From Rhodococcus sp. NBC_00297 (GTDB lineage: Bacteria; Actinomycetota; Actinomycetes; Mycobacteriales; Mycobacteriaceae): a stretch of 64,000 nt of DNA. The stretch is taken from contig NZ_CP108041.1 of assembly GCF_036173065.1 (NCBI RefSeq), positions 3,103,001-3,167,000 of the forward strand, in the 5' to 3' direction. The translations under genes and the position numbers were made by a program. The notes under the pieces are model-generated. The model worked only from the letters and a program-made list of their open reading frames with translations, was not told the DNA's origin and made no database searches. Positions 13,051 through 48,650 of the stretch are shown piece by piece (the first letter of the stretch is position 1; each line of letters starts with the position of its first letter).

Positions 13051-13085
13051 ACGAGGATGTGTGCGCACCTGGCATGCTCCGATCC

Positions 13086-13877: not shown

Positions 13878-14648
13878 TCAGCGCTGGGTGTCCACCAGCG
13901 CATTCCTCAGTCGAGTGACCGCGTCGTGGTCGAGGCCGAGCCAGTCCAGGTAGCCGTCGAACGAGCCGTGCGCCGTGGTCATCGCCTCGAGCCCGGCGCG
14001 GTAGTACTCCTCCCGCACGCCCAGCAGGTCGTCGTCGAGGTCGGCGGGGGCCACCTCGTCGTGATCGAGAATGTGGCGCCGGAGTGGAGCGACGGCGGCG
14101 TTGCTGCGCAGGTAGTCCGCGACGATGTCCTCCTCGACGACGCCGGCGGCGCGCAGCACGGTGGCGACGGTCCACCCCGCGCGGTCCTTGCCGGCGGCGC
14201 AGTGCACCAGCGACGAGGTGCCGGACGACAGGGCCTCGACCACCGCCCTGATCGCCACCCGCGCGCCGGGCAGCGTCGGAAAGGCGCGGTAGGCGCCGTC
14301 GAGGTAGCCCCGGGCGGTGGTGGCGGGCACGGCGCGCTCGTGCGGCGCGTCGCGTTCCGCGGCGATGTAGGGGACGCGATGCACGGTGACCGTGTCCGGG
14401 GCCCGGTCCGAGCCCCACCGCGTCACCTCGGCGTCGCCGCGCAGGTCGAACACGTCGCTGACCCCGAGTCCGGCCAGCGTGGCCCGGCCCTCGTCGGAGA
14501 GGTGCGTGAGTGCCGACGCGCGGAAGAGCAGTCCGCTGCGGGTGCGTCCGCCGTCGGACGTGCGCAGGCCGCCGGTGTCGCGGAAGTTCCACGCGCCGTG
14601 CAGGTGGAACTGGCCGGGTTCGGAACCATCCGTGCTGCGTTCACTCAC
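13878..14648 (-). CDS. PtpB-like tyrosine/lipid phosphatase coupled to the NRPS
   Basis: A 256-residue protein phosphatase of the MptpB type, which can be dual-specificity or act on phosphoinositides. The P-loop HCAAGKDRAG has nucleophile Cys150 and Arg156 (CX5R). The N-terminal WNFRDTGG and the GLLFRASALTHLSDEG and DLRGDAEV motifs are family hallmarks. The Lys and Asp within the P-loop are features of the MptpB/triple-specificity group. GTG 14648 lies inside the NRPS 3' end and overlaps its stop by 8 bases, so it is translated from the NRPS message. There is no signal peptide, so it is cytosolic unless exported otherwise. The link to the peptide is positional only. Confidence 0.85.
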   Translation of the reverse strand: MSERSTDGSEPGQFHLHGAWNFRDTGGLRTSDGGRTRSGLLFRASALTHLSDEGRATLAGLGVSDVFDLRGDAEVTRWGSDRAPDTVTVHRVPYIAAERDAPHERAVPATTARGYLDGAYRAFPTLPGARVAIRAVVEALSSGTSSLVHCAAGKDRAGWTVATVLRAAGVVEEDIVADYLRSNAAVAPLRRHILDHDEVAPADLDDDLLGVREEYYRAGLEAMTTAHGSFDGYLDWLGLDHDAVTRLRNALVDTQR

Positions 14649-17600
14649 CCGTCGACAGTAACGACGCGGTCTCCACGCGTCCGAGCCACCGTCCCACCAG
14701 GGGACCGATGTCCGCCACGGCGTCGCTCGACAGCAGTTCGCCGTGTCGCCACGGCACCGACTCCACGTCGGCGGGTCCGGTGCAGTACTGCGACCAGAAG
14801 TCCGACATGCGGCCGAGTTCGACGGCGGTGACGTCGGAGTCGATCATCAGGACGGCCCCGCTGTAGGTCGGCGGCACGTGCTCGTCGACGAGGGCGAACA
14901 GCGTGAGCATCGCCTTGGTGATCAGTCGCGCCTGGATGTCCGAGACCGGTAGCTGGTCGCCGCCCATCGCCGACCACACCGACCACAGCGCGTCCGGCGT
15001 CATGTCCGCCAGGTCGTCGGTCAGGTGCTGGTACGCGCCGAACATGGCGTCCGCCTGCGCCTTCTTGACCGCACTGCCCGGCACGATGCTGTGCACCGGG
15101 TCGAGCAGCGACAGCGACGCGACGGTGTGGCCCTGCGATTGCATCCGGGCCGCGACGGCATGGGCCAGCACACCGCCGACCGACCATCCGACGAGGTGGT
15201 ACGGGCCGACGGGATCCACGTGCCGGATCTCCTCGACGTAGCGCTCGACGACGTCGTCCATCGACCGTGGTGCGAAGTCGGGGTCCGCCACCGCCGGCGT
15301 CTGCACGCCGTACAGGGGGCGGCCGGTCTCGAGGTGGCGGCCGAGCTCGAAGTACGGCCAGGCCAGCCCCATCATCGGGTGGATGCAGAACACCGGGGCG
15401 AGCTCGACTCCGCCGCCCAGTCGGAGAACGGGACCGACTGCGTCGGACGAGGCGATCGACTCGTCGTCGTCCTCGCGGTCGAGATGCTCGGCGACGGCGC
15501 CGACGGTGCCGTGCGAGAACAGGAGTCGGAGCACGCGGTCGACCCCGGCGGCACGACCGAGGTGTGCGGCCACCCTGGTCGCGGTCAGTGAGGTCCCGCC
15601 GAGGGCGAAGAAGTCGTCGTCGAGTCCGATGTCGCCGACGCCCAGCACGAGGGCGAAGGCGTCGGCGACCATGTGTTCCGTCGAGGTCGTCGGCGCGCGG
15701 TACACCGTCGGTGCGAACGTCGGTGCGGGAAGGGCCGCCCGATCCACCTTGCCCGCGATGGTGCGCGGCACCGCGTCCAGAGCGATGACGCGCGACGGCA
15801 CCATGTACTGCGGAACCCGTTCCGCCACCGCCTCTCTGACAGAAGCGACGTCGATCCCGTCGCCGGCGACGTACGCGACGAGATGATCCGATCCGGTTCC
15901 GGCGTCGCGGTTGAGGAGGACCACCGCCTGCGTCACCGCGGGATGGGCGAGGGCGGCGTTCTCGATCTCGCCCGGCTCGATGCGCAGTCCGCGGAGCTTG
16001 ATCTGGAAGTCGCTACGTCCCAGATACGCCAGTTCTCCGGCCGAGTTCCACCGCACCAGGTCGCCGGTGCGGTACAGGCGCGCGCCCGGCGGTCCGTACG
16101 GCGCGGCGACGAACCGGCTCGCCGTCAGCCCGGTCTGCTCGACGTACCCGCGGGCGAGATGTGGTCCGGACAGGTACAACTCACCGACGGCGCCGAGAGG
16201 TACCGGCCGCAGTCGGCCGTCGAGCACCACCGCGTCCACACCGCGGACCGGTGTGCCGATGCCGACGGGGCGGTCCGGCGTGATCGGTCCGTGCGCGGTG
16301 GCCCAGACGGTCGTCTCGGTGGGGCCGTAGTCGTCGTACATCTCGCGTCCGGCGGACCACGTCGCCGCGAGGTGATCCGGGAGGGCCTCGCCGCCCACGA
16401 CGAGGACGCGCACGCAGTCGAGGCCGGCGGGGTCCAGGGAGTCGAGCACGCGGGGCGTGATGATCGTGTGCGTGACCCTCTCGTGGCGAATCAGCGCGCC
16501 GACCTCGTCGCCGCTGTGTACGTGCGCCGGCGCGAGAACGAGAGTGCCGCAGTGCGCCAGCGCCATCAGCAACTCGGCGATCGAGGCGTCGAAGGTCGGC
16601 GAGGCCACCGCGAGCACACGCACGTCCGGCACGTCGCCGCGCCGGGAACGTTGGTCCGCCAGCGCATCCGCCAGGCCCGCGTGGGTCACGGCGACGCCCT
16701 TGGGTCGGCCCGTGGAGCCGGAGGTGTAGATGACGTACGCGATCGAGCTCGGATGCAGCCCCGGACGACGCTCCGACGCGAGCACCGTGTGCGCCGGGTG
16801 ACGGTCGAGCGCCGACACCACGTCCGGATCGTCGAGCACGATGCGCGGAATCCACGGCGCCGCGGTCGAGGTGGTCTGCTCGGACCGGGACTCCGTGATC
16901 ACGACGACGGCGCCGGAGTCCTGGAGGATGTGCGCGATCCGCTCGGCGGGTTGCGCGGGATCGACCGACAGGAACGCTGCCCCGGCCGCGGCGACGGCCC
17001 ACACGGACAGGACGTGGTCGATCGAGCGCGGCATCGCCAGCGCGACCACGACGTCGGGTCCTGCGCCGCAGGCGATCAGTTCCCGCGCGAGACGATTCGC
17101 TCGCGCGGACAGATCCGCGTAGCTCAGGTCGATGCCGTTCGCGCGCAGAGCGATCGCGCCGGGACGGGCCGCTACCGCGTCGGCCACGAGGTGGTCGAGA
17201 GTCCGGGCCGCCAGCGCGGGGGCACCGCTGCGGGGACGCATCGCGGCACGCTCCGCGGGCTCCACCGTCTCGAGGTCCCCGATCCTGACCGAGGTGTCGC
17301 GTGTCATCGACCGCAGTGTCCACGCCAGTCGGCGCGAGACCCGCTCGATGGTGCTCCGGTCGAACAGGTCGGTCGCGTAGGACAGCTCGATCAGCAGGCG
17401 CCCCTGGTCCTCGCGCAGCGTCACGGCGAGATCGAACTGTACGGGAGCGCCGCCGAGATCGAGCACCTCGACGGCCGGTGTGGTGTCGGGGAATCGCGGC
17501 GGCGCGGTGTTCTGCAGGGTCAGCATCACCTGCACCACAGGGTGACTCGCAGTGGAACGCACCGGGTCGAGGGCCGTCACCAGGGTCTCGAACGGCAGAG

Positions 17601-20600
17601 CGGCATGCGCGAAGGCGTCCAGGGTGGTCTCGCGCGCCGCGGCGAGGTGGTCGGCGACGGTGCCGTCCTCGTCGATCGTGGACCGCAGGACCACCGTGTC
17701 CACGAACATGCCGACCACGTCGTCGAGTGCCGGATCGGTGCGACCCGCGACGGCTGTCCCGACGAGGAGATCGCGCGTTCCCGCCCACTGGGCGAGCACG
17801 ATCGACAGCGCGGTGTGCGCGACCATGAAGAGGGTGACGTCGTGGGCCTGCGCGACGGACCGGAGTGCGCCCAGCGCGTCCGCATCGAGAACGGTACGCA
17901 CCCGATCGCCCTGCTGCGACGGGGTTCTCGGACGGGGGCGATCGGTCGGCAGCGCCAGATCGAGGGGTACGCCGGCCAACCGCTCCCGCCAGTGCGCGAG
18001 GTGACGCGACAACGCGGAGCCGGGGTCGTCGAGCGATCCCAGCGCTGCGCGTTGCGCGAGGGCATGGTCGGCGTACTGCACGGGCAGCGGTGGTAGGTCG
18101 AGTGGCCGTCCCTCCGCGCGAGCGGCGTACGCCGTGACGACGTCGCGCGTGAGCGGCGCCATCGACCACCCGTCCGCGGCGATGTGGTGCACGAGGATCA
18201 CCAGCACGTGATCGGTCGGTGACACGACGAGAAGAGTGGCGCGCAGCGGAGTCTCGGTGGTGACGTCGATGCGCGCCGCCGCGGCCGTGCTTACCGCCGC
18301 GGGGACGTCTGCGGCAGAGGTGCGCACGATCTCGACGGGGACGTCGACCGTGGGCGACACCACCTGGTGCGGCACGCCGTCGAGGGCGGGATGGACGGTG
18401 CGCAGTATCTCGTGCCGGAGGGTCACGTCGTCGAGGGCGGATCGGAGCGCGTCGACGTCCAGCGGACCGGTCAGCCTCAGCGCGAGCGGGATCAGCTGTC
18501 CACCGCGGTCGGCGTCGACGCGGCCGAGGAACCACATCCGGTGCTGAGCGAAGGAGAGCGGCACCCTGTCCGGGCGCGGCGCCGCCGTCAGGGGAGTGCG
18601 CGCCGCGGTCGGCGCCGCGACCAGCACTGCGGCGAGCGCACCCACGGTGGGGTGGTCGAACACCGCGCGCACCGAGACCTCGCGCTCCGTCGCCGCCGAC
18701 ACCCGCGCGGCCACCCGGGTCGCGGACAGCGAATGGCCACCGAGAGCGAAGAAGTCGTCGTCCAGCCCCGGCAGCTCCGGCAACTCGAGCACGGTGGCGA
18801 ACGCCTCGGCGACGGCGCGCTCGGCCGGGCCGACCGCCTCGCGACGCGGAACCGTCGGCACGGTCCCGGGAAGGCCGGAGGCCGGTCGGCGAGGGGAAGA
18901 CAGGAGTGCGCGACGGTCGAGCTTGCCCGACGCCGTCAACGGGATCGCGTCCACGGTGACGATGTGCGCGGGCACCATGTACCGCGGCAGGCGGCGCGCG
19001 GCGTCGTGTCGGAGGTCGGCGGGGTCGATGGCACTCGTGCCGGACGGCACCACGTACGCGACGAGGTGGTCGTCCTGCACCAGCACCACGGCGCGGTCGA
19101 TCGCCGGGTGCGAGGCGAGTGCCGCCTCGATCTCGCCGGGCTCGATGCGCAACCCGCGCAGCTTGACCTGGACGTCGGTGCGGCCCAGATACTCCAGATC
19201 TCCGCCGCTGGTCCAGCGCACGCGGTCGCCGGTGCGGTAGAGCCGCGCGCCCTGAGCCGCGGCGACGAACCGCTCGGCCGTCGCGGTGGGGCGGCCGACG
19301 TACCCGCGCGCGAGGTGGGTGCCGTCGAGGTAGAGCTCGCCGACCACCCCGATCGGCACCGGGCGCAGGAACGTGTCGAGCACCCGCGCGCCGACTCCGC
19401 GGACGGGCCGCCCGATGGTCACGGCGTCGTCCGCCCGGAGCGGGCCGCTGCTCGTGGCCCAGACGGTGGTCTCGGTGGGACCGTAGTCGTTGAACAGGCG
19501 CCGACCGGGGGCCCATCGGGCGGCCAGTGCCGGTGGGCAGGCCTCACCGGCGGTGACCAGGACGTGGAGTGACGGAACGTCCTCGGGGATCAGCGAGTCG
19601 AGCACTCGCGGCGTGAGGAGAGCGTGGGTCACCGCCGACTCAGCCACGAGGCGACCCAGTGCCGGTCCGCCGAACACGTCCGGTGGAGCGACCACCAGGG
19701 GAGCGGACAGGGCCACGGCGATGAGCAGCTCGGCGATGGACGCGTCGAACGTGGGGGACGCGACCGCGAGCACACGTGCCTCCGCAGCCTCGCGCAGTCG
19801 CTGGTCCGGCCGCGCAGCGCCGCGCAGTCGCTGGTCCCACAACGCGTCCACGAGGCCGCGGTGTGTGACGCCCACGCCCTTGGGGGTTCCGGTGGAGCCG
19901 GAGGTGTGGATGACGTACGCGAGGGTGTCGGGACGGATGGCACCGAGCCGGTCGGCGGGCGTCACGTCGGCCTCGGACTCCGCGCCCGTGTCGAGGACCG
20001 TCGGTGACACCGTGGCGAGACGTACCAGTGCGGCGGGAACCGTCACGGCGGTGACGGCGACGTTGGCGCCCGTCTCGGTGAGCATGTGCCGCAGTCGGTC
20101 CGGTGGCCCGTCGGGGTCGATCGGCAGGAACGCCGCGCCGGTCTTCGCTACCGCCCACACCGCGGTGATCTGGTCCACCGAGCGCGGCAGCGCGACGGCG
20201 ACGACGGTGTCGGGCGCGGCGCCGAGGGCGATCAGTGCCCGCGCCCAGCGGTTGGAGCGGCGGTCCAGCTCGGTGTAGGTGAGCGTGCGCTCCCCGATCA
20301 GGGCGGGCCCGTCCGGGTTGCCGGCCACCGCGTCGGCCAGCAGACGAGGCAGCACGCGCGGTGGTAGTCCGGCGCTGCCGTGCTGGGAGAGCAACAGTGC
20401 CCGCTCCGACGGGTGCAGGATCTCGAGGGCGCCGATCCGGTCGAAGGGCCTGCGCGCCACCGCGTCGAGGACGCGGAGCAGGACGTCGACGATTCCGGCC
20501 GCGGTCCGCCGGTCGAAGAGGTCGACGGCGTAGGTCAGTGCGCCGCTCAGTCCGTCCCCGGTCTCCGTGAGATCCAGGGTCAGGTCCACCGGCGCGGCCA

Positions 20601-23600
20601 CGGGAACCGAGTCCAGGACGTCGATCTCCAGTCCGGCGGCCACGAGAGTGGGCGGAGTCTGGTTCTGGAACGCGAACATGACCTGCACGACGGGATGGTG
20701 CGCGGTGGAGCGCACCGGATCGAGAGCGTCGACGATCAGCTCGAACGGCACGTCGGCGTAGTCGAGGGCCGCCACGGTGTCCTCGCGCACCTGATCGACC
20801 AGAGCCGCGACGGTATCGGTACCGGTGACGAACGCGCGGTGCACGACCGTGTCGACGAACATGCCGACCAGCTCGTCGAGATCCTCGTGACCGCGGCCTG
20901 CCACCGGTGTTCCGACGGCGATGTCCTCGCTTCCCGTCACGCGGGCGAGAGTGACGGCCCAGGCCGCCTGCAGGACCATGACGAGCGTCGCGTGGTGGGC
21001 GGTGGCGAGCGCACGCAGCGCCGCGGTCGTGGCGTCCGGCACCGTCACGCGTACACGCGCCCCGCGGTGCGAGGCCACCGGCGGCCGCGGTCGATCGGTC
21101 GGCAACGGCAGCACGTCCGGGAGACCGGCCAGGCGGTCCGTCCAGAACGCGACTCGACCACGGATGTCGTCCGCGTGATCCTGTTGCCACACGGCGTGAT
21201 CCGCGTACTGCATGGGCAGGGGGTCGACAGTCCACTCTCGACCGGACCGGCGGGCCGCGTAGGACGCCGTGAGATCGCGGGTGAGCGGCGCCAGGGACCA
21301 GCCGTCCGCGGCGATGTGGTGCAGCACGAGAAGCAGGACGTGATGCTTCTCGGTCACCGCCACGACGGAGGCGCGCAGCGGGAGATCCGCTGCCAGGTCG
21401 AACGGTGCCGACGCCATCCGGTCGAGGACGGCCTCCGGTGTCTCCGACTCCCGGTCGATCGCGATCCGCGCGTGATCGAGAACGTGTTGCTGCGGAACAC
21501 CGTTCACGGCGGGGTAGACGGTGCGCAGTATCTCGTGGCGGTCGACCACGTCGGCGAGTGCGCCCTGTAGCGCGCCGTGGTCGAGGACACCGCGCAGCCC
21601 GAGTGCGAGCGGGATGACGTAGCCGCTGTCGCTGGAGACCGTGTTCAGGAACCACATGCGCTGTTGGGCGAACGACAGAGGCACCATGTCGGGGCGCGGC
21701 CGTGTCCGCCGCGGTGCGAGAGCGCTCCGAGGCACGGCGTCGATCTGCGCGGCGAGTGCGTGCACGGTCGGTGCCTCGAACACGCTACGGACCGGAACCT
21801 GCAGTCGGGCAGCGACTCTGGTGGCACTGAGGGAGTGGCCACCGAGCGCGAAGAAGTCGTCGTCGAGTCCGACGGGGTCCGCGAGTTCCAGGACCGTCGC
21901 GAAGACGGCCGCGACGGCGACCTGCCCGGCGGTGGACGGAGCGCGGAACTCGGCCGTGTCGAGGGGCGGGCGGGGCAGCCGCGCGCGGTCGAGTTTGCCC
22001 GACGTCGTCATCGGCAGTGCGTCCATCACGACCACCGCGGCGGGAACCAGATACCGCGGCAGTGCCGCCGCGGCGGCGGCCGACACCTCTGCCGCGTCGA
22101 TACTGTGCCCGTCGGCAGCGACCACGTAGCCGACGAGACGCTCGTCGATCACCCCGGCCGCGGCGGCGCCGACGCCCGCGGCGCCGACGAGCGCGGTCTC
22201 GACGTCCCCGAGTTCGATCCGCAGGCCGCGCACCGTGATCTGGTGATCGGACCGTCCGAGGTACAGCAGGTCGCCGACGGCGTTGCGGCGCATCAGGTCT
22301 CCGGTACGGTACGTCCGCTGTCCGTCGGGAGCCGCGACGAAGCGGGACGCGGTGAGTCCCGGCCTACCGAGGTACCCGCGTGCGAGATGGTCGCCTGCGA
22401 CGTACAGCTCACCGACCACGCCGTCCGGAACCGCGTGCAGGCGGACGTCGCGAAGCGAGACCTCGACGCCGAGAGTCGGGGACCCGACGGTCACGGGATG
22501 CCCGGCGGCCAGGAGTGCCGTCGTCGACCAGATGGTCGCCTCGGTGGGTCCGTAGACGTTGGTCATCGTCCGGCCGGGTGCCCACGTGTCGACGAGACTC
22601 GGCGGGCATGCCTCGCCGGCGCTCATGACGACGCGGAGGTCACCGCCGGGATCGGGTGTCGCGTCCAGCGCGCGGGGTGTCATCAGGGTGTGGGTGACAC
22701 GGTGCCGCCGCATCAGGTCGCGGAGTTCGACACCGGCGTAGACCTCGGGAGGGGCGACGACGAGTGCGGCGTCCAGCGCGAGTGCGATGACCAGTTCGCC
22801 GACGGACGCGTCGAACGTCGTCGACGACACAGCGAGCACCCGGGCATCGGATGCCGGTGCGTGCCGGGCCCGTTGGTCCTGGACGGCGTTGTGGAGTCCG
22901 CGGTGCGTGACGGCGACGCCCTTGGGCCGTCCGGTGGATCCCGAGGTGTAGAGGACGTAGGCGAGGTGGTCGGGTCGCAGAGCCGAGCGACGGTCGCGAT
23001 CGGTGATCGGTGCGTCCGACAGCGCCGCGACCGCGGCGAGCGTGGCGGGATCGTCGACCGTGATCCGGACGACGTCGGTCGGGAACGGCGCCGCCGTGTC
23101 GGCGAGCACCAGCGTGGGCGCCGCCTCGGTCAGGATGTCCGCGAGCCGAGCCCGCGGCTGCTCGGGATCGAGCGGGACGAACGCGGCTCCCGCGCGGCTG
23201 ATCGCCGCGACGAGAACGAGGTACCGCGCCGACCTGGCGACGGCGACCGCGACGACGGTCTCGGGACCGGCACCGAGCGCGATCAGACGGCGCGCCCACC
23301 GGTTCGACGCTCGTGCCCACTCGTCCCGCGTGAGAACGGTGTCGCCCTCGATCACCGCGACTGCGGAGCCGTCCGCGTGGGCGTCGAGCAGGGCGGGGAG
23401 CGTCGTCGGGGTCGTGTGGGCGTCGGGATGCGTCCACGTGTCGGGCTCGTCCGCTCCGCGGATCGCGATGTCGCCCACTACGATCTCGGAACCCCGGGCC
23501 GCCGCGCGCAGCACGTGCTCGAGGACGGACGAGAGGCATTCCGCGGTCGTGTGATCGAACAGGTCGCACGCGTAGGTGAGGACGACCGCGAGGCCGGCGC

Positions 23601-26600
23601 CGGCGGGGCGGACGTCGACGGTGAGGTCGAAGGTCGCGGGTGCAGGCCCGACGTCGAGCACCTCGATGTCGGGACTGCCCGGGAGCGGATCCACGTCCTG
23701 GAAGGCCAGCACGACCTGGAAGACCGGGTGATGAGCCGACGTGCGAGCCGCACCGAGGGTGTCGACCACGTGGTCGAACGGGACGTGCGCGTGCGCGAAG
23801 GCGTCCACCGTCTCGTCTCGGGTGCGGGAGAGCAACTCGGCGAACGACTCCGACGGATCCACGCGGGTGCGCAGCACGACGGTGTCGACGAACAGGCCGA
23901 CGAGGTCGTCGAGCGCAGGATCCGGTCGACCCGAGATCGGTGATCCCACCGCGATGTCCGTCGACCCGGTCCAGCGCGCGAGGGCGACGGCGAGGGCGGT
24001 GTGCACGACCATGAACACCGTGGCCCGGTGAGCGACGGCGAGCTCGCTCAGTGCGGCCACGGTCGCGTCGTCGAGATCGAGGCGCACCGCGTCACTCGCC
24101 CGGCCGCGCCGCTCCGGGCGCGGTCGGTCGAGCGGCATGTCGAGGACGTCGGGCAGTCCGGAGAGACGGCACTTCCACCACGCCGCCGCGTCGGAGTCGA
24201 CGCCCAGTTCCGTCTGCCGCACAGCGACGTCGGCGTACTGCACCGACAGTGGCGACTGTGCCGGTACCCGTCCAGAGCGATGGGACTGGTACGCCGACAG
24301 CAGGTCTCGCGTGAGAGGGGCGAGAGACAGACCGTCCGCCGCGATGTGGTGCACGGTCAGCAGCAGGACGTGCTCGTCGTCGGCGAGGCGCAGCACCTCG
24401 GCTCGTAGAGGTGGTTCGGTGGCCAGGTCGAACCGCGTGGTCCGGGCATCCGAGAGTCGCTCCACCAGTGCGTCGGGTGTGACGGCGGTGACCGTGAGGG
24501 TGGTCGGCGCCGGGGGCGGTAGCACGACCTGGTGCACGACACCGTCCGCATCGGCGTAGACGGTACGGAGGATCTCGTGGCGAGTCATGACGTGACCGAT
24601 CGCGGACGACAGCGCGCCGAGATCCAGGTCGCCGCGGACGCGCAACGCCAGCGGCATGACGTAGGACCCCGGTTCGTACCGGTCGAGGAACCACATCCGG
24701 TGTTGGGCGTGCGTGAGCGGGATGCGGTCGGGACGCGCAGCGTGGAACCCGTGGTCGGTGTACGCGTCTCCCGCATCGACGGCGGCAGCCAGCCCCGCGA
24801 TGGTCGGGACGTCGAAGAGCGTGCGGAGCGTCAGGTCGCGTCCGGTCGCCGACCGGATGCGCGCGACGACCCGCGCCGCGCTGAGGGAGGTGGCGCCGAG
24901 CGCGAAGACGTCGTCGTCGGCACCCACCGGAGCGGACGTCTGCAGGACGGCCTCCACGATGTCCGCGACGACACGCTGGGTCGGTGTGAAGGGAGTGCGG
25001 TGGACCCGGCCGCGGCGCGCGGGCGCGGGCAGCGCACGCTTGTCGACCTTGCCCGACGCGGTGAGGGGAATGGTCTCGATCTCCACGATGTCGTCGGGAA
25101 CCAGATGGCGCGGAAGTGACGAGCGCAGCGACTGCAGCAGCGCCTCCGGGACGGCTGAACGGCCCCGTGTCGGAACGACGTACGCGACCAGTCGATCTTC
25201 GACGACCGCTGCCACCGCGCGGTCGATCAGGCCCGACCGCGTCAGCACGGCCTCGATCTCCGCCGGCTCGACGCGCACGCCGCGCACGGACAGCTGGTCG
25301 TCGCTCCGGCCGAGGAAGTGCAGGTCGCCGGCGGCGGACCAGCGGACACGATCGCCGGTCCGGTAGAGACGAGATCCGTCCGGTCCGGCGACGAACCGCT
25401 CCGCGGTCAACGCGGTGCGATGCGCGTAGCCGCGGGCGAGTTGCGCACCACCGAGATACAGCTCGCCGGGGACGTCGACGGGAACGGGGCGCAGGGCGTC
25501 GTCCAGCACGAGGGTCGTCGTGTTCCACACCGGTCGCCCGAGGGGGACGTCCGTCGTGTCGGCGTCGGTCATGACGTGGGCGGTGACGTCCACCGCCGCT
25601 TCGGTCGGCCCGTACAGGTTCACCACTCGTACGGGGAGCACGGCGCGGACCGCGGCGGCGACCCCCGCGGGCAGCGCTTCGCCCGACGAGAGGATCGTGC
25701 GCAGCGACGTGCAGGCGGCGAGGCCCGGTGCGTCCGCCATGAGCGCCAGCATCGACGGGACGGCGTGCACCACGCTGACGCGGTGCCGTGCGATCAGTTC
25801 CACCAGCAGATCGGCGTCGCGGTGGTCGTCCGGATCCGCGACGACGACGCGGGCACCGATCTGCCACGGCAGGAACAGCTCCCACACCGAGACGTCGAAG
25901 GTGGCGGGTGTCTTGTGGAGCACGATGTCGTCCGCGGTGACACCGACGAACTCGGCGCGCCAGCGCAGTTGGTTCACGATCGCGGCGTGCGACACCCCGA
26001 CACCCTTGGGCTGCCCGGTGGAGCCGGACGTGAAGAGCACGTAGGCGAGGTGGTCCGGGCGCAGGGGTGCGAGGCGATCGTCGTCGGTGAGGGGTGTGTC
26101 GGAGAAGGACCCGAGGGGCGCATCGCTGATCGTGATCCATTCGACCGCCTCGGGAAGCGTTGCCGCACTCCCGATACCGAGCCGCGCTCCCGACATGGTC
26201 ACCGTGTGTCGGAGCCTCTCGGCGGGATGGCCGGGATCGAGCGGGACGTAGTGCGCGCCGGTGGCCACGACGGCGTGCACGGCGACGAGCAGATCGATCG
26301 ACCGCTCGAGCGCCACCGCGACGGCCGTCTCCGGTCCGGCGCCGCGGCTGATCAGGTACCGGGCGAGGCGGTGGACGCGAGCCGAGAACTCGGCTCGGGT
26401 GACGTGTCGATCGCCGTGAGTGAAGGCCACACGGGACGGATCCAGAGCCGGCACGGCGTCTAGGAGTGTGGTGGGGACGAGGGGGTGCCGGGTGGAGTTC
26501 CACGTCTCGGTGACGAGGGTGCGCTCCGTGACCCCGAGCAGGTCGATCTCGGCGAGCACACGCGAGGGGTCGAGTGCCTCGAGCACCCGCAGGAGTCGGT

Positions 26601-29600
26601 CCAGCAGTCGGTCCACGGCGTCGGTGTCGAGGACGTCGCGGCGGTGCGTCGCGCGCACGACGAGGCTCTCTCCCGGTTCGACCGCCAGGGACAGCGGGTA
26701 GTGCGTCGCGTCCCGCGCCTCGACGCCGAGAACGGAGAGGTCACCCGCCGCCGCGGTCAGAGCGGTGCGATCCAGTGGATACGACTCGAAGGCGAGCGAC
26801 GTGTCGAATCCGGCGCCCGGCCCGACCTCCGCCTCGATGGCGGACGGAGCGAGGTGATGATGATCGAGCAGCGCGGCCTGCTCACGCTGCAGTCGCTGAG
26901 CCGACTCCCGCACCGTCGCTGTGCGATCGAGCCGCACGCGAACCGGAACGGTGGAGATGAGGAGCCCCACCATGGATGCGGAACCGTCCAGCTCGGCCGG
27001 TCGGCCCGAGACGGTGGCTCCGAAGACGACGTCGGTACGGCCCACCGCGGAGCCCAGTACGAGTGCCCACGCGAGTTGCACGAGGGTGTTGACCGTGACC
27101 CCCGCGGCGCCGGCGCGCGCCACGAGTTCGGCGGTGCGCTCGGTGCTCAGGGTCGCGATGCGTTGTCCCGGTGCCTCGTCGGTTCCGGAACCGTGCGCGG
27201 GAGCGAGCAGCGTCGCCTCGGTCGATCCGGCCAGGGCCTCCGACCATGCCGCGAGCGAGGCCGTGGTGTCGCGTTCGCTCACCCACTGCAGGAAGCCGCG
27301 GAGTGGAGGCGGCGCGGGCCGGGGGTCCTCGCCGGCGTAGTCGGCCAGGAGATCGGCGAGGACGATCGGCAGGGACCAGCCGTCGAGGAGCAGATGGTGA
27401 TGGGTGAGCACCAGGGTGTGCCGCTCGTCCCCGGTGTGCAGCAGAGCGACGCGCAGCAGCGGTGCGGCGGCCACGTCGACGGCGACGCCGCGATCGTGCG
27501 CGAGGAAGGCGTCGAGCACGGCGGCAGGGTCGGGATCGGCCCGGACGTCCACTTCCGTCCACGGCACCGTGACGGAGGCCGCGATCACCTGGACGTCCGT
27601 CCCGTCGGCGGTGGTGTCGAAGGCGACCCGCAGCGCGCCGTGACGGTCCACCAGCGAGTGCGCGGCCCGCTGCAGACGGTCGGCATCGAGCGCTCCACCG
27701 AGGTGCACGATCGTCTGCACCACATAGGGATCGACGCTCCCGGCGGCGAGGCGGGCATGCATCAGCAGGCCCGCCTGCAGTGGCGCGGTGGGCAGGACGT
27801 CGATCAGCGTGGGATGACGCCCGGTCCACCCGTCGACATCGGATGGTGTCGCATCGACCAGCGGGAAGTCCGACGGTGACCGCCCGCCGGCGCCGGGGGT
27901 GTCGACGTGGCGCGCGACGGCCGTCGCCGCCTCGACCCACAGCGAGACGAAGGCCTCGACGTCCGCGTCCGCCAGGACCGCGTCGAGCGTGCTCAGTCGT
28001 GCGATCAGGGTGTCCCCGAGGACGACGGTGTCGATCTCGAGCACGGCGGCCGCGCCCAGGTCCTCGGGCCGTGGTCCCGACAGCGGGGAGATGCCGGGAA
28101 CCGGGAGCCAGTCACCGGTGTCCGTCGTCGTCATCCTGCCGAGGTGCGCGAACGAGATCTGCGGTGTCCAGCGCAGGGCGTGGCGCGCGTCGTCGTCTGC
28201 CCCGTGTCGCAGCAGCCCGTAGCTCGCGCCGTGGTCGGGAACTCGTGCGAGGTGCTCCTTGACCCGCAGAATCGCCTCGCCCGCAGCAGGTCCGCCGCGC
28301 AGCGCCGCGGCGATGTCGAGACCCGTGAGGTCCAGTCGTACGGGGAACACCGTGGTGAACCAGCCGACGGTGCGCCCGGTGTCGGCGCCGGGAACCAGGT
28401 CGTCCTCCCGTCCGTGTCCCTCGAGTTGGACGAGCCTGGTCGGTGCGTCGTCCTGTCGCCACGTGGCCAGCGCGAGGGCGAGCGCGGCGAGGAGGGCGTC
28501 GGTCGGTCCGGCGTGGAACAGGGTGGGCGCGCGGACCAGTAGTGCGTCGGCGATCTCTGCTGGAAAGGCGACGTCCCGGACCGTCGTGTCCCGTACCCGA
28601 TCGACGACGGGGTCGAGGAGTCGTTGTCCGAGAACGGGATCGGGGCCGTCCAGAACGCCGGTCCAGTACGGCAGCCGCGCGCTCGCGTCGTGCGCTGCGA
28701 GACCGGACGACCAGCGCCGCATCGACGTGCGGACGGGGGCGAGAGTCGGTGCGACCCCGTCGCGCACCGCGGCCCACGCCGCGACGAGATCGGCGACGAG
28801 GACGCCCCACGACACCACGTCCACCACCAGGTGGTGCGCCGCGATCACGAGGCGTCCCGCCGTGTGCTCGCCGAGGTCGTTCCAGCCGAGCCCGAGCATC
28901 ACGCCGTTCTCGGGATCGAGTGTCGCGACGATGTCCTCCACCGCGAGATCGGCGCCGCGGCGCAGCAGTCCGTCGACCCGGACGGCATCCCGCGGGCGCA
29001 CCTCGAGGTGTACGCCGTCCGCGTCGCGGACGAGCACGGAGCGCAGCATGTCGTGGTGCGCGACCACGGCCTCGATCGTGGACACCAGGGATGCGCGGTC
29101 GATGCCGACCGGGAGCGAGAGCGTGAGGGTCTGAGCGAACTGATGCGGTGTTCCGCCGCGCTCCAGCAGGTGGCGCACGATGGGTGTCGGGTCGACGCGG
29201 CCGATGCCGCTGCCGGGTGGCTCGTCGACGGTGCCGACCGTGTCCGCCACGCGCGCGAGCCCGGCGGCACTGCGTTGTTCCACGACGTCACGAGCGCTGA
29301 TCCGCACGCCCGACGCCGCTGCGACGGTGACCAGTCGGATCGAGAGGATGCTGTCACCGCCGAGCGCGAAGAAGTCGTCGTCGACCCCGACATCGTTGCG
29401 GGACAGCACGTGTGACACCGCGTCGAGCAGCCGCCGCTCGACGTCGGAGGCGGGTTCACGGCGGGTCGTGGTCCGGCGCTCCGGCTCGGGGAGTGCGCGG
29501 ACGTCCACCTTGCCGGAGGCGGTCAGCGGGAGCGCGTCCAGCGGCACCACGTGCACCGGGACGAGGTGGCTCGGCAGCGTCCGGACGACGGCGGCGAGAA

Positions 29601-32292
29601 CGTCCGCGGGGTCGGCGTCACCGGTCACGTACGAGACCAGCTGCTCGCTGTCGCCGTCACGACGGACCACTGTGACGGCCTGCGTCACACCGGGAACCGC
29701 GACGAGGGCCGTGTCGATCTCGCCGGGTTCGACACGGCGCCCTCGTACCTTGACCTGACTGTCGGTGCGCCCCAGGTACTCCAGGTCACCGGACGACGTC
29801 CACCGTGCGCGGTCACCCGTGCGGTACAGCCGCGTTCCGTCGACCCCGGCCACGAAGCGCGCCGCGGTCTCCGCCGACCGTCCGACGTACCCGCGGGCCA
29901 GGCCGGCTCCGGCGAGGTGCAGCTCACCCGGAACTCCGACCGGGACGGGGCGCAGGCGGGAGTCGAGCACCACGGCGCGCACTCCGGGCAGGGGACGCCC
30001 GATGGTGACGGTTCCGGACTCCGCCAGCGGCGCAGTCCCGGTGGCCCACACCGTGGTCTCGGTGGGTCCGTAGTCGTTGTGCAGCAGGAGGCCCGGTGAC
30101 GTCGACCACCGGGACGCCAGCGCGGGCGAGCACACGTCGCCGACACTGAGGACCTGTCGCAGCGACGGAGCTCCGGTCGGGGACAGTGTCTCGAGCACCC
30201 GCGGAGTCAGGATCGCGTGGGTGATCGATTCTCGTCGCAGCAGATCCTGCAGAGGTGCACCGGAGTACGCGTCGGAACCGGCGACGACGAGGCAGCCGGA
30301 CAGTGCTAGGGCGAGAAGGTGTTCCGAGATCGACGCGTCGAAGGTCGGAGCCGCGACGGCGAGGACGCGACTGCCCCCCATCTCCGGAACCCGTGTCTCC
30401 GCACCGCGTGCGCGGTGGCCGGCCACGACACCGTGCAGTCCGGCGTGGGTGATGGCGACGCCCTTCGGACGGCCGGTGGAGCCGGAGGTGTACATGACGT
30501 AGGCGAGCTCGGTGATCGCCGGGTGCTCCCTCGTCAGCGGCTCCGGTGCGACGTCCGTGACGTCCACCCGGGTCGTTCCGCTCGGCAGATCGACGGGATG
30601 TCGATCCGTAGTGACGACGAGGGTCACCCCGGATTCGGCCAGCACGGCGGTGAGCCGCTCGGCGGGGTCCGCGGGGTCGACCGGGAGGAACGCGGCACCG
30701 GTGCGCACGACGGCCCAGAGCGCGATCACCTGGTCGACGGACCGCGGAAGTGCCAGCGCCACCACGGTTCCCGGAGTCGCTCCTGCATCGCGGAGAGTGC
30801 GGGCGAGGCGCCCGGAGGCGTCGTCGAGTTCGCCGTACGTGAGCGTGGCCGTTCCGCCGCGCACGGCCGGCGCCGCCGGGTCGCTGCGCGCGACCGCCGC
30901 CATGAGGTCGCCCAGTGTCGTCGCCGTCGGTGCCGGCCCGCCCGACCGGTCGAGCAGATCGGCCGCCTCGCCGTCGTCCAGGAACGCGAGATCGCCCACG
31001 GTGGTGTGGTCGTCCGCCGCGACGATGCCGCCGAGGAGTCGCGTCAGCCGCACGCCGTGCCGGTCGATGTCGGAGGCGTCGTAGCGCTCCGGGTTCCACT
31101 GGATGTCCAGCGTCAGTGTGTCGCCGGTGTAGATGTTGATCGCGGTGTCGTGGACGGGCCCCGACGACAGGATGCCGACGGGAGCCGAGATGTCGTCGAA
31201 CTGCAACGGGGCGACGAACGGCATGATGTTCACGACGGGGCCGAAGGAGACGCCGAACGGCCGCACCTCCGGTGGCAGAAGCTGATCCCAGTCCCGGAAG
31301 CGTTGGTGCCGAAGCGCCCCGGTGATCTCTCGCCGTACCTGTACGAGCAGTTCTCGCACCGCCGTGGTCGAGTCGACCGTCAGCCGCAGCGGCACCAGAT
31401 TGGCCATCATCCCGGCCGTCGCCCGCAGTGCGGCGGTGGTGCGTCCGGTGACGGGGAATCCGAGGACCACGTCGTCGGTGTCGAGCACCCGCGACTGATG
31501 CACGGCGAGAGCGGCGACGACGGCGAGCGGGTCGGCTGCGGTTCCCCTCGGCTGGGTCCACGGCAGGCGCGTCGCGACGGGTTGCCGGGGTGCGCTCGGG
31601 GGTGCCGCCGACAGTGCCGTGGGGCCGCCGACGCCGGCGAGGTGCTCGCGCCAGTGGGCGAGGTCGGCGTCGTGGCGACGTGACGCGGCGTAGGCGACCT
31701 CCGCATCGTGGATGCGGGCGGCGGTGTCGGGCGTCGGCGCCGGTCCCGGAGCCGACGTTCCCGAGTAGTGGCCGGCGATCCGTCCGAGGAGTGTGAAGGC
31801 GCCCTGGCCGTCGAGCACCACGTGGTGGGCCCGCAGATACAGGAACGTGCGGTGATCGTCGAGTCGGAGGAACACGCAGCGAACCAGCACGGTTCCGTGG
31901 AGATCGACGGGCTCCCGGAACTCGGCGCGCATCCACGCGTGAGCGGACGCCTCGGGGTCGGCGTCGCCGCGCAGGTCGAGCACGTCGAGGTTCATGACGG
32001 CGTCCTCGACGTGGATCAGACACGGCTCGTCGTCCTCTCCCTGCGCGAGGCGGGTCTGCCGCAGGCCGGACTCGGTGCCCGCGGCGTACATCGCCCGTTC
32101 CAACCGAGCGAGGTCGACGCCCGAGCCGACCGGAGCGGAGATGTCGACGTACAGGGCGACGGTGAGGGCCGCGTCGGGATCGAGGCGCTGGGCCAGCCAG
32201 AACGGCCGTTGCGCACCCGTCAGCGGAACCCGGGCGGGGCCGCCGTCCGGTTCGGGGGACACGACCGCCCCCTCGTTCCGGTCGTCTCCCAC
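14641..32292 (-). CDS. Giant five-module nonribosomal peptide synthetase with terminal thioesterase
   Basis: The product has 5883 residues. Domains (approximate residues): C1 20-450 (HHVVLDG), A1 470-930, T1 Ser981, E1 1010-1440 (HHLVVD, EGHGRE at 1291), C2 1490-1930, A2 1950-2430, T2 Ser2469, C3 2515-2960, A3 2980-3430, T3 Ser3487, C4 3525-3970, A4 3990-4440, T4 Ser4521, C5 4565-5030, A5 5050-5510, T5 Ser5568, TE 5610-5883 (GWSVGG, Ser5704). All C domains keep HHxxxDG. Eye-read specificity codes: A2 DVWHLSLVDK (serine); A1 DASILVDVWK, A3 DAGLMAVIWK, A4 DAALVADVWK, A5 DAAIVGDVWK (no confident match). C1 resembles EntF/DhbF C domains (GFPVTGR, MMANLVPLRL), suggesting an acyl or aryl starter. 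Predicted product: acyl-D-X-Ser-X-X-X, released as acid or ring. No MbtH or tailoring gene is nearby. GTG 32292 follows TAGGTT by 7 bases; GTG 32262 has GAGGGGG and is the alternative. Confidence 0.95.
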   Translation of the reverse strand: MGDDRNEGAVVSPEPDGGPARVPLTGAQRPFWLAQRLDPDAALTVALYVDISAPVGSGVDLARLERAMYAAGTESGLRQTRLAQGEDDEPCLIHVEDAVMNLDVLDLRGDADPEASAHAWMRAEFREPVDLHGTVLVRCVFLRLDDHRTFLYLRAHHVVLDGQGAFTLLGRIAGHYSGTSAPGPAPTPDTAARIHDAEVAYAASRRHDADLAHWREHLAGVGGPTALSAAPPSAPRQPVATRLPWTQPRGTAADPLAVVAALAVHQSRVLDTDDVVLGFPVTGRTTAALRATAGMMANLVPLRLTVDSTTAVRELLVQVRREITGALRHQRFRDWDQLLPPEVRPFGVSFGPVVNIMPFVAPLQFDDISAPVGILSSGPVHDTAINIYTGDTLTLDIQWNPERYDASDIDRHGVRLTRLLGGIVAADDHTTVGDLAFLDDGEAADLLDRSGGPAPTATTLGDLMAAVARSDPAAPAVRGGTATLTYGELDDASGRLARTLRDAGATPGTVVALALPRSVDQVIALWAVVRTGAAFLPVDPADPAERLTAVLAESGVTLVVTTDRHPVDLPSGTTRVDVTDVAPEPLTREHPAITELAYVMYTSGSTGRPKGVAITHAGLHGVVAGHRARGAETRVPEMGGSRVLAVAAPTFDASISEHLLALALSGCLVVAGSDAYSGAPLQDLLRRESITHAILTPRVLETLSPTGAPSLRQVLSVGDVCSPALASRWSTSPGLLLHNDYGPTETTVWATGTAPLAESGTVTIGRPLPGVRAVVLDSRLRPVPVGVPGELHLAGAGLARGYVGRSAETAARFVAGVDGTRLYRTGDRARWTSSGDLEYLGRTDSQVKVRGRRVEPGEIDTALVAVPGVTQAVTVVRRDGDSEQLVSYVTGDADPADVLAAVVRTLPSHLVPVHVVPLDALPLTASGKVDVRALPEPERRTTTRREPASDVERRLLDAVSHVLSRNDVGVDDDFFALGGDSILSIRLVTVAAASGVRISARDVVEQRSAAGLARVADTVGTVDEPPGSGIGRVDPTPIVRHLLERGGTPHQFAQTLTLSLPVGIDRASLVSTIEAVVAHHDMLRSVLVRDADGVHLEVRPRDAVRVDGLLRRGADLAVEDIVATLDPENGVMLGLGWNDLGEHTAGRLVIAAHHLVVDVVSWGVLVADLVAAWAAVRDGVAPTLAPVRTSMRRWSSGLAAHDASARLPYWTGVLDGPDPVLGQRLLDPVVDRVRDTTVRDVAFPAEIADALLVRAPTLFHAGPTDALLAALALALATWRQDDAPTRLVQLEGHGREDDLVPGADTGRTVGWFTTVFPVRLDLTGLDIAAALRGGPAAGEAILRVKEHLARVPDHGASYGLLRHGADDDARHALRWTPQISFAHLGRMTTTDTGDWLPVPGISPLSGPRPEDLGAAAVLEIDTVVLGDTLIARLSTLDAVLADADVEAFVSLWVEAATAVARHVDTPGAGGRSPSDFPLVDATPSDVDGWTGRHPTLIDVLPTAPLQAGLLMHARLAAGSVDPYVVQTIVHLGGALDADRLQRAAHSLVDRHGALRVAFDTTADGTDVQVIAASVTVPWTEVDVRADPDPAAVLDAFLAHDRGVAVDVAAAPLLRVALLHTGDERHTLVLTHHHLLLDGWSLPIVLADLLADYAGEDPRPAPPPLRGFLQWVSERDTTASLAAWSEALAGSTEATLLAPAHGSGTDEAPGQRIATLSTERTAELVARAGAAGVTVNTLVQLAWALVLGSAVGRTDVVFGATVSGRPAELDGSASMVGLLISTVPVRVRLDRTATVRESAQRLQREQAALLDHHHLAPSAIEAEVGPGAGFDTSLAFESYPLDRTALTAAAGDLSVLGVEARDATHYPLSLAVEPGESLVVRATHRRDVLDTDAVDRLLDRLLRVLEALDPSRVLAEIDLLGVTERTLVTETWNSTRHPLVPTTLLDAVPALDPSRVAFTHGDRHVTRAEFSARVHRLARYLISRGAGPETAVAVALERSIDLLVAVHAVVATGAHYVPLDPGHPAERLRHTVTMSGARLGIGSAATLPEAVEWITISDAPLGSFSDTPLTDDDRLAPLRPDHLAYVLFTSGSTGQPKGVGVSHAAIVNQLRWRAEFVGVTADDIVLHKTPATFDVSVWELFLPWQIGARVVVADPDDHRDADLLVELIARHRVSVVHAVPSMLALMADAPGLAACTSLRTILSSGEALPAGVAAAVRAVLPVRVVNLYGPTEAAVDVTAHVMTDADTTDVPLGRPVWNTTTLVLDDALRPVPVDVPGELYLGGAQLARGYAHRTALTAERFVAGPDGSRLYRTGDRVRWSAAGDLHFLGRSDDQLSVRGVRVEPAEIEAVLTRSGLIDRAVAAVVEDRLVAYVVPTRGRSAVPEALLQSLRSSLPRHLVPDDIVEIETIPLTASGKVDKRALPAPARRGRVHRTPFTPTQRVVADIVEAVLQTSAPVGADDDVFALGATSLSAARVVARIRSATGRDLTLRTLFDVPTIAGLAAAVDAGDAYTDHGFHAARPDRIPLTHAQHRMWFLDRYEPGSYVMPLALRVRGDLDLGALSSAIGHVMTRHEILRTVYADADGVVHQVVLPPPAPTTLTVTAVTPDALVERLSDARTTRFDLATEPPLRAEVLRLADDEHVLLLTVHHIAADGLSLAPLTRDLLSAYQSHRSGRVPAQSPLSVQYADVAVRQTELGVDSDAAAWWKCRLSGLPDVLDMPLDRPRPERRGRASDAVRLDLDDATVAALSELAVAHRATVFMVVHTALAVALARWTGSTDIAVGSPISGRPDPALDDLVGLFVDTVVLRTRVDPSESFAELLSRTRDETVDAFAHAHVPFDHVVDTLGAARTSAHHPVFQVVLAFQDVDPLPGSPDIEVLDVGPAPATFDLTVDVRPAGAGLAVVLTYACDLFDHTTAECLSSVLEHVLRAAARGSEIVVGDIAIRGADEPDTWTHPDAHTTPTTLPALLDAHADGSAVAVIEGDTVLTRDEWARASNRWARRLIALGAGPETVVAVAVARSARYLVLVAAISRAGAAFVPLDPEQPRARLADILTEAAPTLVLADTAAPFPTDVVRITVDDPATLAAVAALSDAPITDRDRRSALRPDHLAYVLYTSGSTGRPKGVAVTHRGLHNAVQDQRARHAPASDARVLAVSSTTFDASVGELVIALALDAALVVAPPEVYAGVELRDLMRRHRVTHTLMTPRALDATPDPGGDLRVVMSAGEACPPSLVDTWAPGRTMTNVYGPTEATIWSTTALLAAGHPVTVGSPTLGVEVSLRDVRLHAVPDGVVGELYVAGDHLARGYLGRPGLTASRFVAAPDGQRTYRTGDLMRRNAVGDLLYLGRSDHQITVRGLRIELGDVETALVGAAGVGAAAAGVIDERLVGYVVAADGHSIDAAEVSAAAAAALPRYLVPAAVVVMDALPMTTSGKLDRARLPRPPLDTAEFRAPSTAGQVAVAAVFATVLELADPVGLDDDFFALGGHSLSATRVAARLQVPVRSVFEAPTVHALAAQIDAVPRSALAPRRTRPRPDMVPLSFAQQRMWFLNTVSSDSGYVIPLALGLRGVLDHGALQGALADVVDRHEILRTVYPAVNGVPQQHVLDHARIAIDRESETPEAVLDRMASAPFDLAADLPLRASVVAVTEKHHVLLLVLHHIAADGWSLAPLTRDLTASYAARRSGREWTVDPLPMQYADHAVWQQDHADDIRGRVAFWTDRLAGLPDVLPLPTDRPRPPVASHRGARVRVTVPDATTAALRALATAHHATLVMVLQAAWAVTLARVTGSEDIAVGTPVAGRGHEDLDELVGMFVDTVVHRAFVTGTDTVAALVDQVREDTVAALDYADVPFELIVDALDPVRSTAHHPVVQVMFAFQNQTPPTLVAAGLEIDVLDSVPVAAPVDLTLDLTETGDGLSGALTYAVDLFDRRTAAGIVDVLLRVLDAVARRPFDRIGALEILHPSERALLLSQHGSAGLPPRVLPRLLADAVAGNPDGPALIGERTLTYTELDRRSNRWARALIALGAAPDTVVAVALPRSVDQITAVWAVAKTGAAFLPIDPDGPPDRLRHMLTETGANVAVTAVTVPAALVRLATVSPTVLDTGAESEADVTPADRLGAIRPDTLAYVIHTSGSTGTPKGVGVTHRGLVDALWDQRLRGAARPDQRLREAAEARVLAVASPTFDASIAELLIAVALSAPLVVAPPDVFGGPALGRLVAESAVTHALLTPRVLDSLIPEDVPSLHVLVTAGEACPPALAARWAPGRRLFNDYGPTETTVWATSSGPLRADDAVTIGRPVRGVGARVLDTFLRPVPIGVVGELYLDGTHLARGYVGRPTATAERFVAAAQGARLYRTGDRVRWTSGGDLEYLGRTDVQVKLRGLRIEPGEIEAALASHPAIDRAVVLVQDDHLVAYVVPSGTSAIDPADLRHDAARRLPRYMVPAHIVTVDAIPLTASGKLDRRALLSSPRRPASGLPGTVPTVPRREAVGPAERAVAEAFATVLELPELPGLDDDFFALGGHSLSATRVAARVSAATEREVSVRAVFDHPTVGALAAVLVAAPTAARTPLTAAPRPDRVPLSFAQHRMWFLGRVDADRGGQLIPLALRLTGPLDVDALRSALDDVTLRHEILRTVHPALDGVPHQVVSPTVDVPVEIVRTSAADVPAAVSTAAAARIDVTTETPLRATLLVVSPTDHVLVILVHHIAADGWSMAPLTRDVVTAYAARAEGRPLDLPPLPVQYADHALAQRAALGSLDDPGSALSRHLAHWRERLAGVPLDLALPTDRPRPRTPSQQGDRVRTVLDADALGALRSVAQAHDVTLFMVAHTALSIVLAQWAGTRDLLVGTAVAGRTDPALDDVVGMFVDTVVLRSTIDEDGTVADHLAAARETTLDAFAHAALPFETLVTALDPVRSTASHPVVQVMLTLQNTAPPRFPDTTPAVEVLDLGGAPVQFDLAVTLREDQGRLLIELSYATDLFDRSTIERVSRRLAWTLRSMTRDTSVRIGDLETVEPAERAAMRPRSGAPALAARTLDHLVADAVAARPGAIALRANGIDLSYADLSARANRLARELIACGAGPDVVVALAMPRSIDHVLSVWAVAAAGAAFLSVDPAQPAERIAHILQDSGAVVVITESRSEQTTSTAAPWIPRIVLDDPDVVSALDRHPAHTVLASERRPGLHPSSIAYVIYTSGSTGRPKGVAVTHAGLADALADQRSRRGDVPDVRVLAVASPTFDASIAELLMALAHCGTLVLAPAHVHSGDEVGALIRHERVTHTIITPRVLDSLDPAGLDCVRVLVVGGEALPDHLAATWSAGREMYDDYGPTETTVWATAHGPITPDRPVGIGTPVRGVDAVVLDGRLRPVPLGAVGELYLSGPHLARGYVEQTGLTASRFVAAPYGPPGARLYRTGDLVRWNSAGELAYLGRSDFQIKLRGLRIEPGEIENAALAHPAVTQAVVLLNRDAGTGSDHLVAYVAGDGIDVASVREAVAERVPQYMVPSRVIALDAVPRTIAGKVDRAALPAPTFAPTVYRAPTTSTEHMVADAFALVLGVGDIGLDDDFFALGGTSLTATRVAAHLGRAAGVDRVLRLLFSHGTVGAVAEHLDREDDDESIASSDAVGPVLRLGGGVELAPVFCIHPMMGLAWPYFELGRHLETGRPLYGVQTPAVADPDFAPRSMDDVVERYVEEIRHVDPVGPYHLVGWSVGGVLAHAVAARMQSQGHTVASLSLLDPVHSIVPGSAVKKAQADAMFGAYQHLTDDLADMTPDALWSVWSAMGGDQLPVSDIQARLITKAMLTLFALVDEHVPPTYSGAVLMIDSDVTAVELGRMSDFWSQYCTGPADVESVPWRHGELLSSDAVADIGPLVGRWLGRVETASLLSTGE
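18872..18889. repeat. In-frame copy of the 18-bp GC repeat inside the NRPS gene
   Basis: AGGCCGGAGGCCGGTCGG, identical to the core of the 12975-13050 array. In the NRPS it encodes about residues 4468-4473 (RRPASGLPG context) in the linker between A4 and T4, where extra residues are tolerated. Confidence 0.75.
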
Positions 32293-32490
32293 AGGACGAA
32301 ACCTATCCGCGGGAATTGCCCGTTCGGTCGGGCTCGCCGTCTTCTGGAGGACTCACAGGAGGCGGCGACGACTGCTGGTCCGGGCCACGCCCCACGGCTC
32401 GGGAAGAGAGACACATTAATAGTTGTTTACCTCAGGTATCTATCTATATAGTTGCAGACAGCAAGTAAACGAGTTCGAGGAGAGATCGCC
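32293..32490. promoter_or_regulatory. Divergent promoter/operator region between NRPS and marR
   Basis: This AT-rich island has a palindrome TACCTCAGGTA (32428-32438) and flanking GTTTAC (32425-32430) and GTAAAC (32465-32470) as a long inverted pair. A TATCTATCTATATA run between them could hold a -10 box for marR. On the other strand TAGGTT (32300-32305) lies 7 bases before the NRPS GTG. A MarR dimer on the palindrome would sit about 140 bases from the NRPS start, so direct control of marR-MFS is more likely than of the NRPS. Confidence 0.6.
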
Positions 32491-32970: not shown

Positions 32971-32990
32971 GAATAGGAAGAACCACAGAC

Positions 32991-48504: not shown

Positions 48505-48650
48505 GGTGTCTGTACCTTCCAGTAGCAGCAGGTTTGTTGTGTATTGGATCACATGAAGCGATGCTGCGGTGATCGTAGTGCCGTATCCGCTTTGTCCTGT
48601 TCGAACAGTTGTCGTTCTGCAGGTGGTCGCTGGACTAGACTCTGGTGCAC

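Follow-up and report, generated by a model that had tools for sequence, protein, structure and literature searches.

What does a single giant synthetase gene make, and with what does its chain begin? The question is raised by a nonribosomal peptide synthetase (NRPS) gene of Rhodococcus sp. NBC_00297, which lies in a stretch of 64,000 nucleotides (hereafter the window; contig NZ_CP108041.1, positions 3,103,001 to 3,167,000), part of a 4.81-Mb, two-contig assembly. Our reading, to which we give a probability of roughly 0.8, is that this NRPS alone would make a small lipopeptide, acyl-D-X1-Ser2-X3-X4-X5. The gene is a single open frame of 17.65 kb, read from GTG 32292, with condensation (C), adenylation (A), thiolation (T), epimerisation (E) and thioesterase (TE) domains in the order C-A-T-E-C-A-T-C-A-T-C-A-T-C-A-T-TE:

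14641..32292, minus strand: NRPS gene, C-A-T-E-(C-A-T)x4-TE, 5883 codons; likelier start GTG 32262
30973..32262, minus strand: C1, starter condensation domain (Cs); HHVVLDG at residues 156-162, gate residues A155 and A165
29377..30885, minus strand: A1, code DASILVDVWK
29248..29445 (ends approximate), minus strand: T1, GGDSI
27895..29232, minus strand: E, epimerisation domain, HHLVVDVVSW
26530..27840, minus strand: C2, D-accepting (DCL)
24913..26442, minus strand: A2, serine code DVWHLSLVDK
24778..24990 (ends approximate), minus strand: T2, GATSL
23452..24768, minus strand: C3, ordinary internal (LCL)
21859..23373, minus strand: A3, code DAGLMAVIWK
21733..21930 (ends approximate), minus strand: T3, GGHSL
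20410..21729, minus strand: C4, internal (LCL)
18757..20325, minus strand: A4, code DAALVADVWK
18628..18831 (ends approximate), minus strand: T4, GGHSL
17260..18609, minus strand: C5, internal (LCL)
15616..17172, minus strand: A5, code DAAIVGDVWK
15478..15690 (ends approximate), minus strand: T5, GGTSL
14683..15441, minus strand: TE, GWSVGG at residues 5702-5707

The original prediction, made from the letters of the DNA alone, had described a complete synthetase of 5883 residues with this domain order, ending in GWSVGG and with an E domain in module 1 only, and domain and motif scans bear out both points. With the protein split in two halves, the domain scan returned 4 + 2 stretches of Condensation fold (five C domains and E), 2 + 3 of AMP-binding, 2 + 3 of PP-binding and one Thioesterase. 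The motif scan found HHxxxDG five times, HHxxxDxxSW once, in E, GWSVGG in the TE, every T core motif and most A core motifs; HTSGSTGTPKG (core motif A3 of module 4) and PRTIAGKVD (core motif A10 of module 5) were missed by the motif expressions and are present on reading the translation. The C, A and T core motifs are intact in each module, and a TE closes the protein. One detail has shifted: GTG 32262 is a likelier start than GTG 32292, giving 5873 aa, because GAGGGGG sits five bases before it; the match to the orthologue of Rhodococcus sp. Leaf247 starts just upstream of the same codon.

How the chain begins is indicated by C1. In a tree of C domains from 120 proteins gathered by similarity to C1, from which C domains shorter than 330 aa and P0002, a duplicate of P0001, were excluded, C1 falls in a clade of 117 tips, all of them first, N-terminal C domains. 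Inside the E and after-E clades of this tree lie 6 and 23 tips labelled internal, which may be domains that the E motif missed. Tree, position and comparison with the PDB agree on a starter-type domain such as opens Cs-initiated lipopeptide synthetases. The starter C domains of RzmA and CDA rank above EntF among its best PDB matches, by sequence as well as by fold, and RzmA-Cs is the closest by sequence and by VIA-align. Alanine stands in C1 (gate residues A155 and A165) at RzmA positions Y138 and R148, the setters of chain length. A165, a small residue at RzmA position 148 that leaves the gate of the acyl pocket open, is alanine in all six family proteins listed; more widely, A or G occupies this position in 104 of 119 first C domains, and the pair G147 plus A/G148 occurs in 0 of 548 readable non-first C domains. 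The gate alanines thus point to a fatty acyl-CoA donor, predicted at about C8 or longer, and speak against an aryl starter. Of the "acyl or aryl" starter that had been deduced from the N-terminal C domain, the acyl half stands, narrowed to fatty acyl, and the aryl half becomes improbable.

An aryl acid such as 2,3-dihydroxybenzoate or salicylate, supplied in trans, would instead make the product a siderophore-like peptide, which we consider improbable. Both the ranking of RzmA and CDA above EntF and the small gate residues, which suit an alkyl pocket, count against it. No aryl-activating gene, iron gene or iron-regulated neighbourhood was recognised among the window genes scanned, the rest of the genome not having been searched, and the original prediction had likewise seen neither a siderophore starter nor tailoring genes. 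One IdeR consensus has 0 matches in the window, and comparison with known codes picked out none of the five as of the hydroxamate type.

Several points weigh against a fatty acyl lipopeptide. The best matches of C1 also include ObiF1 and EntF, which we take to use aryl starters, and by fold ObiF1 scores level with RzmA and CDA. Choosing the proteins for their similarity to C1 biases the starter-clade test. The G147 plus A/G148 pair is missing from 40 of 119 first domains, and the gate residues are mapped from one model system, RzmA, which is about 30% identical to C1. Donor choice of starter C domains has itself been called not very strict (PMC7804268, in part). Sequence or model underlies the domain order, the domain types, the serine code, the gate residues and, as described below, the purifying selection and the lack of a travelling partner gene among the neighbours scanned, whereas acyl-CoA use, chain length, the mode of release, export and the biological role are inferred.

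The lipopeptide route can nevertheless be proposed step by step. C1 would take a medium- or long-chain fatty acyl-CoA from the cell pool and join the acyl chain, of the length predicted above, to amino acid X1 on T1, which E would convert to the D form. C2, placed in the tree with the D-accepting type and lying directly after E, would join D-X1 to L-serine, and C3, C4 and C5, all of the internal LCL type in the tree, would add X3, X4 and X5. The TE would then free the chain as an acid or as a lactone through Ser2; its best PDB match is 7CRN (E 1.3e-32), presumably the lactone-forming TE of skyllamycin, with EntF next, which leaves acid versus lactone unsettled. The product might serve as a surfactant or an antimicrobial. 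This scheme is that of the original prediction, and the type of C1, the type of C2 after E, the serine code and the lack of partner genes among the neighbours scanned all support it.

Among the residues, serine is the firm one. The module 2 code DVWHLSLVDK had been read as a serine code, correctly, and A2 carries a serine-type code in 6 of 6 genomes compared, with V or I at position 330 and one departure (A at 299 in genome G005). Taken from six family proteins, the A1, A3, A4 and A5 domains group together in a single clade of 24 tips (support 0.996), into which no other A domain of the 120 proteins falls. The best outside relatives found for A4 are 49-57% identical; among 27 loci of best matches, taken one locus each (155 of 201 genomes had a match), 22 have DALF-type codes, which we take to be aliphatic-like, while W331 occurs in two and D or E at position 322 in none. 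With these four A domains grouped in a single clade and the relatives found for A4 mostly of the DALF type, our best guess is that X1 and X3-X5 are related residues. D or E at 322 together with W331 is found in 24 of 35 family rows (a copy of the window protein counted) versus 8 of 597 aligned A-domain rows from outside, and is therefore not private to the family; in A3 of the window, position 322 is V. A literature search with six five-letter code ends returned nothing on adenylation domains by title and abstract; of the six papers it gave, five concern tetherin/BST-2 and the viral proteins that antagonise it, and one anticancer peptides, by their titles. In the A-domain tree, A1 holds its position in both sublineages, but the A3-A5 domains of the window's group and those of the trifolii group do not match up module by module; residues 3-5 therefore probably differ between species.

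Whether the gene works alone can be judged from its surroundings. On its two sides lie:

13878..14648, minus strand: tyrosine-phosphatase-like neighbour, not counted in the pathway; 8-base overlap with the NRPS stop
32452..35012, plus strand: neighbour pair of a MarR-type regulator and a DHA2-type major facilitator superfamily (MFS) transporter, possible export
32491 (likelier start, GTG) to 32970, plus strand: the MarR-type regulator
32991-35012, plus strand: the DHA2-type MFS transporter

In the window and in genomes G103, G005 and G222 (Rhodococcoides trifolii), the NRPS slot lies between the secY-adk-map side and the MarR-MFS pair, followed by other chromosomal genes. The tyrosine phosphatase and the MFS transporter were considered as cluster genes and rejected; because they are genus-wide, with homologues in 35 and 37 of 37 genus genomes respectively, they are neighbours that mark the slot and not pathway genes. 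The MFS transporter may still export the product. An enoyl-CoA hydratase gene (13059-13877) was dropped as well, since it persists in G089 and G073, two genomes without the synthetase. In G211 the NRPS stands at a different place, and a search for 22 other genes of the window found none within its 50 kb; nine of its ten scanned neighbours have a Pfam match, including isochorismatase-like, AraC, HNH and isocitrate dehydrogenase genes, and no NRPS or transporter is among the ten. The NRPS is therefore read as a one-gene cluster; none of the neighbours scanned was seen to move with it as a partner. No gene for an acyl carrier protein (ACP), an acyl-AMP ligase or tailoring could be linked to the NRPS there, nor did the window genes scanned include the acyl-AMP ligase or free ACP of a daptomycin-type start. 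A FadD11-like ligase is encoded 14 kb from the NRPS (46714-48552), in a stretch also present in G103 and G005.

These arrangements bear on a further proposal, that C1 receives an acyl or peptidyl chain built by a different NRPS or a polyketide synthase of the genome and that the gene is the downstream part of a larger line. A candidate donor exists in the locus at 3.03-3.07 Mb, with frames of 2949, 8879 and 2865 codons and its last C domain about 44 kb off. However, C1 belongs to the starter clade and not to the internal one, in the window's species, G103, G005 and G222 the NRPS has other chromosomal genes on either side, and in G211 it stands elsewhere with no NRPS among the ten neighbours scanned, so that we hold a larger line to be highly improbable.

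Of the spacer between the NRPS and the MarR gene (32293-32490), part is AT-rich, and it contains an inverted repeat, GTTTAC (32425-32430) and GTAAAC (32465-32470), a possible MarR operator between the divergent genes. The reading frame orf32440 (minus strand), seemingly conserved by tblastn, was discarded as antisense of the MarR gene. A promoter and terminator scan of 31900-33000 returned none, an Rfam scan over 12500-36000 none, and no tRNA was found in the window.

C1 was also used to trace the family of the NRPS. It is 98% identical to its counterpart in Rhodococcus sp. UNC23MFCrub1.1, a strain of the same species as the window's organism, which is a Rhodococcoides, 72% in Rhodococcus sp. 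Leaf247 and 51% in Rhodococcoides corynebacterioides NBRC 14404; the protein database adds Rhodococcoides trifolii, 'Actinomycetes bacterium M1A6_2h' and one metagenome protein. At E 1e-90, C1 has a match in 6 of 37 genus genomes, two of them of the window's species, and none in the other 31; of 201 genomes sampled from the taxonomic family, three reach this threshold and the next best match is 41% identical. Over the full length, identity to the window NRPS is 98% in G207, 71% in G103, 51% in G222, 50% in G005 and 49% in G211. Two genomes of the window's species and four others keep the frame open, and there are two further full-length database proteins. Against G103, the nearest species, the ratio of nonsynonymous to synonymous divergence (dN/dS, by Nei-Gojobori, with dS near 0.8) is 0.26 over 5847 codons and 0.15-0.30 in each of the 17 domains. 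This ratio shows purifying selection and argues for function; together with the full-length relatives it places the gene far beyond chance.

The same comparison qualifies a less favourable account, in which the NRPS is intact but silent, or heading for loss as in two relatives that have only a 720-aa derivative. The shrunken gene of G089 and G073 stands in the same slot, and 31 genomes are without a C1 match, both of which fit such a course. The low dN/dS in every domain and the frame kept open across the full-length relatives oppose it, and we find silence or impending loss quite unlikely.

The derivative itself is as follows:

L125:4246-6408 (G089); L126:14017-15453 and L127 from about 10023 (G073): 720-aa gene, reading frame kept in both species

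G089 and G073 are relatives of R. corynebacterioides by the flanks of the slot; the gene has 720 codons in G089, and the G073 copy is split by contig ends and lies beside a proline-rich stretch. Its translation has a C region without HHxxxDG (C*), an A region without core motifs (A*), no T, and a TE with GWSVGG. Between the two genomes C* is 61% identical (dN/dS 0.51), A* 64% (0.39) and TE 68% (0.31), while the G089 TE shares 94% identity with the TE of the full gene in G005 (0.12); these ratios mix older and newer change. Flanking blocks of G089 and G005 match at about 89-90%, and since the gene-side blocks match, 16.9 kb of the one allele stands against about 1.5 kb of the other. Close matches (at least 62%) to the C*-A* body occur only in G089 and G073 among the 37 genus genomes; weaker ones occur in all 37, as expected for A domains.

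A bolder proposal would join several of these threads. The family A-domain pocket, with A236, V/I330, W331 and, in most copies, D or E at 322, would be undescribed and would select an unusual residue at four of five positions; the products would form a new class of lipopentapeptides in which exchange of modules had reshuffled residues 3-5 between lineages; and the 720-aa derivative of the sister species, its C and A motifs and every T lost, would have kept a working TE by selection for a new task. Taken jointly, we regard this as unlikely.

The enzyme type itself, a lipopeptide NRPS with a starter C domain, is already known and common in rhodococci. RzmA and HolA (rhizomide and holrhizin) likewise have an N-terminal Cs and no ACP or acyl ligase gene in their clusters, and HolA has alanine at the acyl gate, as here, whereas the first C domain of CDA synthetase I has M165, matched with a C6 chain (PMC7804268, in part). 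Among rhodococci and relatives, 69 of 79 NRPS families in 28 strains show lipopeptide hallmarks, and starter-C lipopeptide NRPSs are frequent; these families share with the window gene the bacterial group, an N-terminal starter C and a product that is not known (Ceniceros et al., 2017; PMC5550956, in part). The main text of that paper names neither R. corynebacterioides nor UNC23MFCrub1.1, and none of its numbered families could be matched from the main text. A study of 616 genomes counted 12,455 clusters (PMC11433410, in part). Among the papers listed, none is about this NRPS gene by title and abstract, with supplements and MIBiG outside the search. Nocardia has five-module synthetases with the same order of C, A, E and TE, C-A-E-(C-A)x4-TE with T not called. 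One example is P0067 of N. farcinica (6036 aa), two of whose codes end in IWK, as A3 does here; however, its first C domain is 36% identical to C1, its module 1 code is DAETVGEVTK, and it has no serine code in module 2. The RzmA/HolA host presumably belongs to another phylum than the host of the window.

For chemistry the NRPS offers a clean minimal case: one gene, a prediction of acyl length, one firm residue and four related pockets. A solved product would assign the codes of A1 and A3-A5 and help to read further synthetases of rhodococci and Nocardia. One slot that carries an intact allele in some genomes and a shrunken one in others offers a small natural experiment on the loss of a giant synthetase.

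The genome holds other NRPS genes. An MbtH gene, which had been proposed for a search beyond the window, was found at G000:C1:1621635-1621787, adjoining an NRPS frame of 5362 codons (G000:C1:1621635-1639299). Further NRPS frames, of 4584 and 3545 codons, lie at 105-116 kb and 4.265-4.273 Mb, respectively. The large locus named above spans G000:C1:3029096-3073942, about 44 kb from the NRPS, and the first C domain of that locus shares 40% identity with C1. The small genomes G005, G073 and G089 have NRPS frames of about 11,430 codons, seen as search matches only. In R. trifolii (G222), the tyrosine phosphatase gene is on the 5' side of the NRPS. Finally, the window contains two related molybdopterin oxidoreductases with a bacterial Ig domain, presumably of the sulfite-oxidase type, at 35279-36784 and 45017-46591; they lie about 8 kb apart and give cross-hits of 53-55% in relatives.
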